64,000 nt of DNA, taken from Chloroflexota bacterium. Lineage in GTDB: Bacteria; Chloroflexota; UBA11872. The notes under the pieces are model-generated. The model was given only the letters and a program-made list of their open reading frames with translations. It had not been told where the DNA came from and did not search any database. The position numbers and the translations under genes were made by a program. Within the stretch, counting starts at the first letter, position 1. Each line of letters begins with the position of its first letter. Shown piece by piece: positions 31,152 through 35,058 of this stretch. The stretch covers positions 16,633 to 80,632 of the forward strand of contig WTFW01000120.1 in NCBI GenBank assembly GCA_011523785.1, read 5' to 3'.

Positions 31152-32423
31152 TCAGCCGCTGACGATGTCGCCTTCGACCGGGTCGGCGCGGATGCCCTGG
31201 GCCTCCACCCACTCGATGGCGGCCTCGAGCTCGGAGCGCTCGCCTTCCAGCATCAATTGCACCCAGCCAATGCCCGCGTCGATGTCGGCGCGACGCACGT
31301 TGAACTTCAGGTGAAATCGCCGAGCCAGCTCGTAAAGGATCGGTTCCTGGATTCGGTCTGACGGATAGGTCAACTGGATCCGAATCCGCGCTGGCCCGTG
31401 GTCAACCAGCCGCCCCGCGGATCCATGCACCGCATCGTCAACGTCCACGGGCGCGCCGCGCTCGGCTGACGCGCGCAAGGCATCCAGCACGTTCAGCGTG
31501 CGGATCGCATCGTGCCCGTCAACGCTCGGAGGTCGACCCAGGTGCACGGCGGTGGCGAACTCCGCCATCTCGGCGTCGTACATCGGCTGCAGGGGGTCCG
31601 ACTGCACGTATTCGACTGTCGGCCGGCGGAATTCGTGGGCGCCGGAACTCTCGATGTCGATCTGCCCGCTTTTCCAGTCCGACCGGATTCGTCCCCGGTC
31701 GCCGGTGATTTCGAGATGGTCGTACGCGACGCCGGCGGCCTGGCTGAGGCTGATGGTGGCGCTCACGCCATCGGCAAACTCAATAACGCCGGATATGGAC
31801 TCATCGCTCCCGGTGTCCTCCCGGTACGTCATGTGCGCGTAGGCGCGAACCACGGGCTGGCGGTGCAGCCAAAGCAATTGGTCCACCAGGTGAGATCCCA
31901 GGAACAGCAGTTGCCCGCCGCCGCGGGCGGGATCCGCCAGCCAGCCCGGCAGCGGTGGGCTGCCCTTGGCGGCCGCCAGGGTGCGAATGTTGCCCACCAC
32001 GCCGCGCCGGACCAGGTCACGGGCGCGGGTGCGCACGTCGTTGAATCGCAGGCAATAGGCGGGCATGTAGGTGAGCCCGCGACTGTTGGCGGCCTCCACG
32101 ACTCCCGCCACCTCGGTCGCATTCAGCCCGGCGGGCTTCTCCACCAGCACGTGCAGGCCGGCTTCGATACAGGCCTGCGTGATCGGGACCAGGTCGTCGT
32201 GCGGCACGGCAATCACCGCAGCGTCGGCATGGCCGCCGGACGTCAACTCCTCCACGCTGGTCAGCACTTCGGCCACGCCATGGGCAGTCTTGCGAGCCGC
32301 CGCGGGGTTTACGTCAACGCACGCGCTCAGGGCCACGCCGTCGGTGGACCACACGGCCGGAGCCAGGCGCGTACCGCCGTGAGCTCCACACCCGATCAGC
32401 GCAATCCGAAGGTCAGTAGTCAT
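31152..32423 (-). CDS. Gfo/Idh/MocA oxidoreductase with C-terminal NIL domain
   Basis: N-terminus LRIALIGCGAHGGTRLAPAVW..., VLVEKPAGLNATEVAGVVEAA, RGGGQLLFLGSHLVDQLLWL. C-terminal 80 aa IRIQLTYPSDRIQEPILYELARRFHLKFNVRRADIDAGIGWVQLMLEGERSELEAAIEWVEAQGIRADPV matches the NIL domain (PF09383) pattern from memory. Confidence 0.88.
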   Translation of the reverse strand: MTTDLRIALIGCGAHGGTRLAPAVWSTDGVALSACVDVNPAAARKTAHGVAEVLTSVEELTSGGHADAAVIAVPHDDLVPITQACIEAGLHVLVEKPAGLNATEVAGVVEAANSRGLTYMPAYCLRFNDVRTRARDLVRRGVVGNIRTLAAAKGSPPLPGWLADPARGGGQLLFLGSHLVDQLLWLHRQPVVRAYAHMTYREDTGSDESISGVIEFADGVSATISLSQAAGVAYDHLEITGDRGRIRSDWKSGQIDIESSGAHEFRRPTVEYVQSDPLQPMYDAEMAEFATAVHLGRPPSVDGHDAIRTLNVLDALRASAERGAPVDVDDAVHGSAGRLVDHGPARIRIQLTYPSDRIQEPILYELARRFHLKFNVRRADIDAGIGWVQLMLEGERSELEAAIEWVEAQGIRADPVEGDIVSG

Positions 32424-32468
32424 TGGGAAGCGGCGCCACGGCACAAGGTGGCCGCATTCTAGGCGACG

Positions 32469-33305
32469 CTAGAAGTCGCGGCGGTTGAAGGTGCGAACGG
32501 CGAACCCCAGCGCCAGTGCCAGGTGCAGCCCCGCGATCAGCAGCATCCAGCCGGAGGGCGGGTTGCTGGCGCCGAAGGGGCCCGCGCTCAATTCGCCGGC
32601 GAAGCCGCCGGTTGCCAGCTGGGCGCTGGCCATGTCCCAGATGGCGCGGGTGGGAACCAGGACGCTGCTGAAGACGCCAATGTTGAACATGACCGCGCTT
32701 TCCAGCACGTCGCCGATCTGCTCGATCACGCCGCCAATCAGCGCCGTCGCGTACAGCGTGAAGACAATCACGCCGTTCGGCAGCGGGCTCAGGCGGGAGT
32801 TGCCCGCCAGCGCCAGTCCGATCAGCAGCATCGAGGCCAGCAACATCAGGAGCGGACCGGACCAACTGGCGCCGACAAGCTGGCCGGTGATCACGGCCAC
32901 GATCAGGATCATCAGGCTGGCCGAGACGCCGATGAAGACCGCCAGCATCAACGCGAAGCCAACGAACTTCCCCAGCACGATTTCGGCGCGGCGCACCGGT
33001 CGGGCCGCAATGGCGTGCAGCGTGCCCTGGTCCACTTCGCCCCCGAGAGCGCCAACAGACAGAAAGATGGCCAGCACCGAGGCGATGAAGTTCAGGCTCC
33101 AGAGACCTCCGACCAGCATCAGGTTGATGACGCCTTCCGTCAGCCCGGGCGGTCCGCCGGGGGTGTCTTGCAGGTCGCGGTAGCCGAACCAGACCCCGAC
33201 GCCGTAAAGCACCAGGTATCCGAAGGTCAGCAACGCCGCCGCCAGCACCACACGACGCCGCAACGCCTCGCGGAGTGTGAAGAACGCGATCAGGTGGGTG
33301 CTCAC
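32469..33305 (-). CDS. ABC-2-type transporter permease
   Basis: Six or so TM segments; FTLREALRRRVVLAAALLTFGYLVLYG, VDQGTLHAIAARPVRRAEIVLGKFVGFALML (NosY/ABC-2 style). Overlaps the ATPase gene end (ATGA). Confidence 0.87.
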   Translation of the reverse strand: MSTHLIAFFTLREALRRRVVLAAALLTFGYLVLYGVGVWFGYRDLQDTPGGPPGLTEGVINLMLVGGLWSLNFIASVLAIFLSVGALGGEVDQGTLHAIAARPVRRAEIVLGKFVGFALMLAVFIGVSASLMILIVAVITGQLVGASWSGPLLMLLASMLLIGLALAGNSRLSPLPNGVIVFTLYATALIGGVIEQIGDVLESAVMFNIGVFSSVLVPTRAIWDMASAQLATGGFAGELSAGPFGASNPPSGWMLLIAGLHLALALGFAVRTFNRRDF

Positions 33306-34213
33306 ACGTCGCCCCGTTCGGCCACGCGCACGAACAGGTCCTCCAGCGAGTCGCCGACCTGCCGCACGTCGTAGACGGGCACGCCGGCTTCGACGATGCG
33401 CTGCACGAGGATTGCGGTCTCTTCGTCGTTGGCAACACGCACGCGCAGTCGTCCGTTGCGCGCGCGAACCTCGGCGTCGCCCAGGGCCTGGCGGGCGGCG
33501 GCCTCGGCGCCATTGCCGGCGCGAATCTCGATTTCCTGGGCGCGCAGCAACGAGTCCAACTTGCCCTCGGCCACGATGGCGCCGTGGTCGATGATGGCTA
33601 CGCGGTCACAGACTTGCTCAACCTCGGATAGCAGGTGGGAGTTCAGAAAGACCGTGACGCCCTGTTGACCGAGTTCCCGGATGCGGTCCCTGACGTCGCG
33701 GCGTCCGATGGGGTCCAGGGCCGATGTCGGCTCGTCCAGGATCACCAGCCGAGGCTGACCCACCAGGGCCTGCGCCAGGCCGACGCGCTGCATCATGCCC
33801 TTGGAAAAGGTGGAGAGACGGTCGTCCAGGCGGTCGCTGAGTCCGACCAGTTGCAGCAGTTCACATACACGCGCGGCGCGAACCTGGGCGGGAACGCGGG
33901 CCAGTCCGGCGTGGAAGTGCAGCAGCTCGGACGCGGTGAGCCAGTCGTGAAACCGGAAGGTCTCGGGCAAATACCCAACCTGGGCGCGCGCCGCCAGGCT
34001 ACCAACCGGTTGACCCAGGACCTCGATTTCGCCGGCCGTTGGGTACGTCAGGCCCAGGATCATCTTGACGATCGTGCTTTTGCCCGCGCCATTGGGCCCC
34101 AGGAAGCCGAAAATCTCACCGTGCTCGACCGACAGGCTGACGTCGTCAACGGCGACGGTGGCGCCGTAGCGCTTGGTGACGCCGGCGAGAGTGATGGCGG
34201 GGTGGTCGCTCAG
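33302..34213 (-). CDS. ABC transporter ATP-binding protein; probable CTG start overlapping upstream stop (CTGA)
   Basis: Extending the track ORF 33302..34063 upstream in frame gives (L)SDHPAITLAGVTKRYGATVAVDDVSLSVEHGEIFGFLGPNGAGKSTIVKM, which includes Walker A. The rest contains LSTFSKGMMQRVGLAQALVGQPRLVILDEPTSALDPIGRRDVRDRI. Confidence 0.92.
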   Translation of the reverse strand: MSDHPAITLAGVTKRYGATVAVDDVSLSVEHGEIFGFLGPNGAGKSTIVKMILGLTYPTAGEIEVLGQPVGSLAARAQVGYLPETFRFHDWLTASELLHFHAGLARVPAQVRAARVCELLQLVGLSDRLDDRLSTFSKGMMQRVGLAQALVGQPRLVILDEPTSALDPIGRRDVRDRIRELGQQGVTVFLNSHLLSEVEQVCDRVAIIDHGAIVAEGKLDSLLRAQEIEIRAGNGAEAAARQALGDAEVRARNGRLRVRVANDEETAILVQRIVEAGVPVYDVRQVGDSLEDLFVRVAERGDV

Positions 34214-35058
34214 CGCTCGGTCCTTGCGGTTTCGGCCAGGCGCAGCAGGCTGTCAGGCGGCAGTGGCCCCGTGAGCAGAAGCTGCGACCGTTCGTGCATC
34301 CAGGAAACGCCCAGGCTTCCGGTTGGCAGGTCGGTGACGGATGGTTCTGCCGAATCAGATGTCGAGTCGCCGTCCAGGCCCAACGCCAGCCGGACCAGCG
34401 GGATTTCCAGCACGTCGAACTCCTGGCTCAAGATCGGCGGAACAAAGGCCTGGGCCAGCAATTCGGCCAGCAGCTCCAGGTCGCGCGGCGGCAGTCCGCG
34501 AACGAGCGGCGCTTCGATCTGGAGCAGCGTGAGCGGTTCCCGGTCGGTGTCGTCAGCCGGCCAGGTGGTCATAACGTACGCGCCGCCCGAAATCGTGAGT
34601 TCGTCGGTTCCCAAGCGACGCGCGAGCGACCGCGACCCGAAGCCTCCCGACAGCAGCGCGGCCAGGTCGGCTGTGTCCAGTTGCAGCGTCAGCGTGCCAA
34701 GGGTGGAGATGCTGCGCTGCGGTTCGCCTGAAAACCCCTGGGAGGGACTGATGGTGAGTACGTCGAAGGGCAAGGCGCGGAGTTCCGCCGGCGCCGGGTC
34801 TTGAATCGTCAGGCCGGGTTCCGAACTGACCACCTCGACGACCTCGGCGAGGGTCGGCGTAGGTGTCGCGGGCACGGTTCGCCCGGCGGCGGTTGCCGGA
34901 CCGGCGTCCGCGTCGATCTCCAGCGGCGTCACCCGCAGCCAGCCCAGGACCGTGTGCGTGATGTCGCGCGCCGGGGCAAGCGTGATCAACAGGACCACCG
35001 CCAACGTGATGGATCCAATGGCGGCCCAAAGGGCACGCGAGCGGACGACCTGGCTCAC
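34210..35058 (-). CDS. Membrane-anchored hypothetical protein in ABC exporter operon
   Basis: GTG start (VSQVVRSRALWAAIGSITLAVVLLITL), one TM then an extracytoplasmic domain; GTGA overlap with the upstream gene. Confidence 0.7.
   Translation of the reverse strand: MSQVVRSRALWAAIGSITLAVVLLITLAPARDITHTVLGWLRVTPLEIDADAGPATAAGRTVPATPTPTLAEVVEVVSSEPGLTIQDPAPAELRALPFDVLTISPSQGFSGEPQRSISTLGTLTLQLDTADLAALLSGGFGSRSLARRLGTDELTISGGAYVMTTWPADDTDREPLTLLQIEAPLVRGLPPRDLELLAELLAQAFVPPILSQEFDVLEIPLVRLALGLDGDSTSDSAEPSVTDLPTGSLGVSWMHERSQLLLTGPLPPDSLLRLAETARTER

Follow-up and report, generated by a model that had tools for sequence, protein, structure and literature searches.

The 64,000-nucleotide stretch of a Chloroflexota genome analysed here (the window) holds an open reading frame in which a dehydrogenase of the Gfo/Idh/MocA superfamily runs into a C-terminal NIL domain, naturally raising the questions of whether such a protein is real, where its NIL domain came from and what that domain might do there. 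The literature found describes NIL on two kinds of partner only, an importer of methionine and a ferredoxin of the homocysteine pathway; a NIL-bearing dehydrogenase adds another kind of enzyme that NIL may control. We find that the combination is real and undescribed in the literature searched.

A dehydrogenase and a NIL domain in one reading frame

The features of the protein, all on the minus strand of the window, are as follows.

31152–32423, minus strand: gene of the Gfo/Idh/MocA–NIL fusion protein, 423 aa (translation, Pfam, orthologues in 19 genomes)
32058–32411, minus strand: NAD(P)-binding Rossmann domain PF01408, residues 5–122, with the EKP motif and K96 (Pfam, alignment)
31440–32027, minus strand: Gfo/Idh/MocA C-terminal catalytic domain PF22725/PF02894, residues 133–328, with F174 and H178 (Pfam, alignment)
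31395–31439, minus strand: linker, residues ~329–343, variable, with low pLDDT and relaxed dN/dS (model, selection)
31188–31382, minus strand: NIL domain PF09383, residues 348–412, with N375 equivalent to N295 of Escherichia coli MetN (Pfam, alignment, model)
31155–31187, minus strand: C-terminal tail ADPVEGDIVSG, residues 413–423, common to standalone NIL proteins (alignment)

Translation of window positions 31152–32423 (minus strand) gave 423 amino acids in a single open frame, and together with the Pfam search it confirmed the original prediction of one uninterrupted frame carrying a dehydrogenase and then a NIL domain. The domains and positions given there were correct, and all four families scored above cutoff: PF01408 with 61.6 bits at residues 5–122 (cutoff 24), PF22725 with 78.4 bits at residues 133–247, PF02894 with 63.1 bits at residues 136–328, and NIL with 48.5 bits and an E-value of 8e-13 at residues 348–412 (curated cutoff 24). 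The ATG at 32423 is where the orthologue alignment begins, which favours the 423-residue form over a possible extension to 430 aa from a GTG at 32444, 21 bp upstream. The frame is uninterrupted in 18/19 genomes of the window's family at 51–98% identity, including the single-contig 3.0 Mb genome G002, and the remaining copy (G008) is truncated by a contig end. No start codon before the NIL domain is conserved in the orthologue alignment, ruling out separate translation of the NIL domain from an internal start.

The dehydrogenase part is most likely an NAD(P)-dependent, sugar- or cyclitol-type enzyme, as its family matches and fold neighbours suggest. The whole predicted structure matched glucuronide-3-dehydrogenase, 1,5-anhydrofructose reductase and GenD2, all sugar dehydrogenases, in Foldseek. 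The best NCBIfam neighbour was inositol dehydrogenase, at 115.8 bits, and this score lies far under every equivalog cutoff, so that no substrate name can be assigned. The catalytic lysine K96 of the EKP motif and the histidine H178 are retained in all aligned members. Four residues before H178, a phenylalanine (F174) takes the place of the usual aspartate, as it does in the closest unfused relatives, while other members have D, E, H, S or Y at this site. Aspartate at this position is common in sugar dehydrogenases but not universal, and its absence is not disqualifying; the replacement nevertheless makes the substrate, and even the reaction, uncertain.

The AlphaFold2 model, built from an input alignment of 53 sequences, showed two confidently predicted domains (mean pLDDT 92.1, pTM 0.79) joined by a linker whose pLDDT fell below 50 around residues 335–339. 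Residues 344–415 were modelled as a beta-alpha-beta-beta-alpha-beta, ferredoxin-like fold. Modelled alone, the NIL domain had MetN C2 as its top Foldseek match (3tui_C, TMq 0.80, rmsd 1.6), and the ACT-bearing phosphoglycerate dehydrogenase (PGDH) 1sc6 was a weaker match (E 1.6e-3). Among near relatives, dN/dS was about 0.01–0.07 for the NIL domain and 0.093–0.120 (about 0.10) for the dehydrogenase, and a more distant pair, the window protein and L060, gave 0.18 and 0.26. Because the values are low in both domains, both are under purifying selection, the NIL domain being the more constrained. The 15-residue linker, with relaxed dN/dS, is flexible and evolves freely; the DPVxGDIV tail is conserved and lies outside the NIL fold.

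Distribution and origin of the fusion

The fusion is present in each of the 19 genomes that represent the window's family, 13 in its genus and 6 in the sister genus, and was not seen outside that family among 400 Chloroflexota genomes, of which 126 have a NIL domain of some kind. The best 30 NIL ORFs outside the family were MetN ATPases (recognized by Walker A plus LSGGQ), NIL-ferredoxins (two CxxCxxC) or short NIL proteins with neither feature, lower-scoring ORFs being judged by frame length only. A genome-collection scan for relatives returned Chloroflexi/Chloroflexota MAGs only; it used near-exact peptide patterns, which do not exclude the NIL–dehydrogenase architecture from other phyla. 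We read the hosts of the named relatives as sponges from the isolate names, and no relative of the NIL domain was plasmid-borne. The rarity originally claimed was correct, and no description of NIL on a dehydrogenase was found in the literature searched (open-licence papers only).

Two conserved neighbours of the fusion gene bear on its history.

32469–33305, minus strand: ABC-2 type permease, conserved, 45 bp upstream of the fusion gene on the same strand (neighbourhood comparison)
33302–34063, minus strand: ABC ATPase, conserved neighbour of the fusion gene (neighbourhood comparison)

The ABC ATPase gene is itself preceded by a gene (34210–35058, minus strand) that is conserved at this place in the two genera of the family and encodes a 282-aa protein with no Pfam match. 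Further neighbours include glycosyltransferases, an O-antigen ligase, an ABC-2 exporter and a glycerol-3-phosphate acyltransferase-like gene, which suggests a glycan or envelope setting. In the sister genus g4 (G020, G023), a free NIL gene stands at the fusion's spot behind the same ABC ATPase and ABC-2 permease, so that the neighbours say little about the substrate of the dehydrogenase. In the sister family f2 the NIL domain is likewise a free protein, of 74–79 aa, and no NIL was found in the 17 genomes of the remaining families of the class. As sister lineages have the same NIL free at the same locus, this system allows a direct comparison of the free form with the fused one.

In the alignment, the junction coincides with the former start codon of NIL: the free MARARVKFTYP aligns with the fused PARIRIQLTYP, and the tail VDPVEGDIV is common to both. 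The tree of NIL domains unites the fused copies in one clade (100/99) that groups with the free NILs of f2 (99/95), and the two together are nested in the standalone type, apart from MetN and ferredoxin NILs. By tree and motifs, the fused domain is thus shown to descend from the standalone ~80-aa 'NIRRAD' type, which rules out the MetN- or ferredoxin-type NIL that the original prediction had assumed. The simplest history is that the NIL gene was first free at this locus, encoding an ~80-aa protein behind the ABC transporter operon, and that in the family ancestor a dehydrogenase gene would have been placed in front of it, a single frame forming at the NIL start codon. The nearest unfused dehydrogenases (G113 and G034, 41–43% identity) belong to other families, so the dehydrogenase may be of outside origin.

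Possible roles of the NIL domain

What might a NIL domain do on a dehydrogenase? The reading we prefer, at somewhat short of an even chance, is that the fusion is a NIL-regulated sugar-type dehydrogenase. An allosteric amino-acid sensor is plausible, given the predicted fold match to MetN C2, the weak match to PGDH and the strong constraint on the NIL domain. Its ligand would be a small metabolite linked to the status of sulfur or of the aspartate-family amino acids, with methionine as one candidate, bound perhaps at a NIL–NIL interface as in MetN; binding might then alter how active the dehydrogenase is or how it assembles, in the manner of the C-terminal ACT domain of phosphoglycerate dehydrogenase. 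Against this reading, the glycosyltransferase and ABC-2 exporter neighbours give no pointer to amino-acid metabolism.

In E. coli, L-methionine on the MetN C2 domain inhibits the transporter, and N295A abolishes that binding (PMC12357092). PDB 6cvl has Ala at the MetN N295 position in the alignment, pinpointing N375, the Asn of the N-I-L motif, as its equivalent in the fusion. The methionine link implied by the original prediction is weaker than was supposed there: this Asn is kept in the window protein and in 12/19 fused proteins overall, but it is Asp in the other 7/19, and the domain is of the standalone type. Since a methionine pocket is not conserved, methionine is no more than a candidate ligand of the fused NIL. 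Methionine binding is also reported for the Methanosarcina acetivorans NIL-ferredoxin (PMC12068725), whose NIL belongs to a different clade from that of the fusion.

Elsewhere in Chloroflexota, a threonine-synthase-like gene, an ~80-aa NIL and a MoaD/ThiS sulfur carrier form a conserved operon, in this order (L097–L115), for example at L111:4754-6645. Standalone NILs of this type adjoin the threonine-synthase-like enzyme and/or the carrier in 14 of the 20 contexts inspected, a count for which the L099 MoaD and the L108 context were read by hand, and some contexts add MnmA-like, ThiF, JAB, CysM-like and homocysteine S-methyltransferase genes. The operon looks like a sulfur-carrier amino-acid route. 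A diverged standalone NIL (L105:6051-6290, L106:6047-6286) lies beside two genes that, by eye from their N-termini, encode Trk/KTN-like potassium-uptake regulators. The fused NIL, coming from the standalone type found in the operon, might have kept an ancestral partnership and act as a protein-docking module that tethers the dehydrogenase to the threonine-synthase-like/MoaD system. The tail conserved outside the NIL fold fits docking, as does the thrC–MoaD pair still present in the window's genome (G000:C105:1804-3335; L143, L150). However, NIL no longer adjoins thrC–MoaD in this bacterial order: in the window's genome the pair lies without a NIL on another contig, C105, away from the genome's sole NIL, the fused copy. 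Elsewhere in the class, thrC–MoaD occurs with NIL absent altogether in families f4 and f5, so that NIL is dispensable for the pair. We regard docking as unlikely, though it is the most serious rival.

The flexible linker, the junction at an old start codon and the NIL without a dehydrogenase at the same spot in g4 are also what would be expected if a dehydrogenase gene had merely landed before the NIL gene, leaving two unrelated functions on one polypeptide with each domain independent. Such a neutral joint fits poorly with persistence of the fusion in 19/19 genomes of two genera, down to 51% identity and with no re-split, and with the want of a conserved internal start for a separate NIL; it ranks below docking and is also unlikely.

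Returning to the sulfur-carrier operon, we considered where homocysteine might come from in these bacteria. Cys_Met_Meta_PP (MetB/MetY type) gave weak partial matches only, in 11 Chloroflexota genomes including that of the window (G000), and HcyBio (PF01837, DUF39) was absent from 14/14 genomes searched, G000 included, so that a DUF39/HcyBio pathway partner was rejected; the incompleteness of MAGs limits the weight of each single absence. Homocysteine S-methyltransferase was present in 12/12 genomes tested. A second threonine-synthase-like gene of the window's genome adjoins homoserine dehydrogenase (G000:C165:5801-7740). We put forward the ThrC2–MoaD route as a homocysteine source only as a hypothesis. 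In this setting of sampled Chloroflexota genomes without convincing MetB/MetY-type enzymes and without DUF39, the NIL could belong to an undescribed MoaD-thiocarboxylate homocysteine route with a second ThrC-like enzyme, the fused dehydrogenase reading the state of the route and linking it to sugar or glycan metabolism; we consider this quite improbable. Apart from that proposal, the standalone proteins reveal a third NIL class, tied to the threonine-synthase-like/MoaD operon; the bacteria concerned have no homocysteine synthase that can be recognised, and this class makes a missing step of methionine synthesis testable.

Two further explanations are readily dismissed. In one, the fusion stands in for homoserine dehydrogenase and NIL provides methionine feedback, an idea whose sole attraction is that NIL is methionine-linked and homoserine dehydrogenase lies in the same pathway; since the window's genome and most relatives have a genuine homoserine dehydrogenase (PF00742), and the fusion is closest in fold to sugar dehydrogenases, we rejected this very improbable reading. 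The other, a frameshift from sequencing or assembly that made one gene out of two, which the original prediction had listed as a possible refutation, has nothing in its favour and a negligible probability, being ruled out by the identical frame in 18 assemblies and by purifying selection on both domains.

Comparison with known systems

The fusion protein resembles the E. coli MetN importer ATPase (PDB 3tui, 3dhx) in having a C-terminal NIL/C2 domain of ferredoxin-like fold on an enzyme, with an equivalent of Asn295. Unlike MetN, it has no ABC ATPase domain (no ABC_tran match in Pfam), its NIL falls in another clade, and the Asn gives way to Asp in 7/19 fused relatives; methionine binding is a feature of MetN and in the fusion a candidate only. 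The NIL-ferredoxin of the DUF39/HcyBio homocysteine pathway (PMC5764234) likewise has NIL in a metabolic-enzyme context, whereas the fusion lacks 4Fe-4S cysteines (no Fer4 match), has a NIL of another clade and comes from a genome without HcyBio. The closest likeness in the NIL domain is to the standalone ~80-aa Chloroflexota protein, the ancestral type by tree placement, which shares the NIRRAD motif and the DPVxGDIV tail; that protein is free, in a thrC-like/MoaD operon, while here NIL is fused to a dehydrogenase and thrC–MoaD lies on contig C105.

Both catalytic domains, the EKP lysine and the histidine are shared with the Gfo/Idh/MocA dehydrogenases 8tdi (glucuronide-3-dehydrogenase), 2glx (1,5-anhydrofructose reductase) and 6nor (GenD2), to which the fusion adds a C-terminal NIL and a Phe in place of the Asp before the His. 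Although its dehydrogenase superfamily differs, its fold match is weak and NIL is not ACT, 3-phosphoglycerate dehydrogenase (1sc6) offers a functional analogue, in which a dehydrogenase carries a C-terminal ferredoxin-like regulatory domain (ACT).
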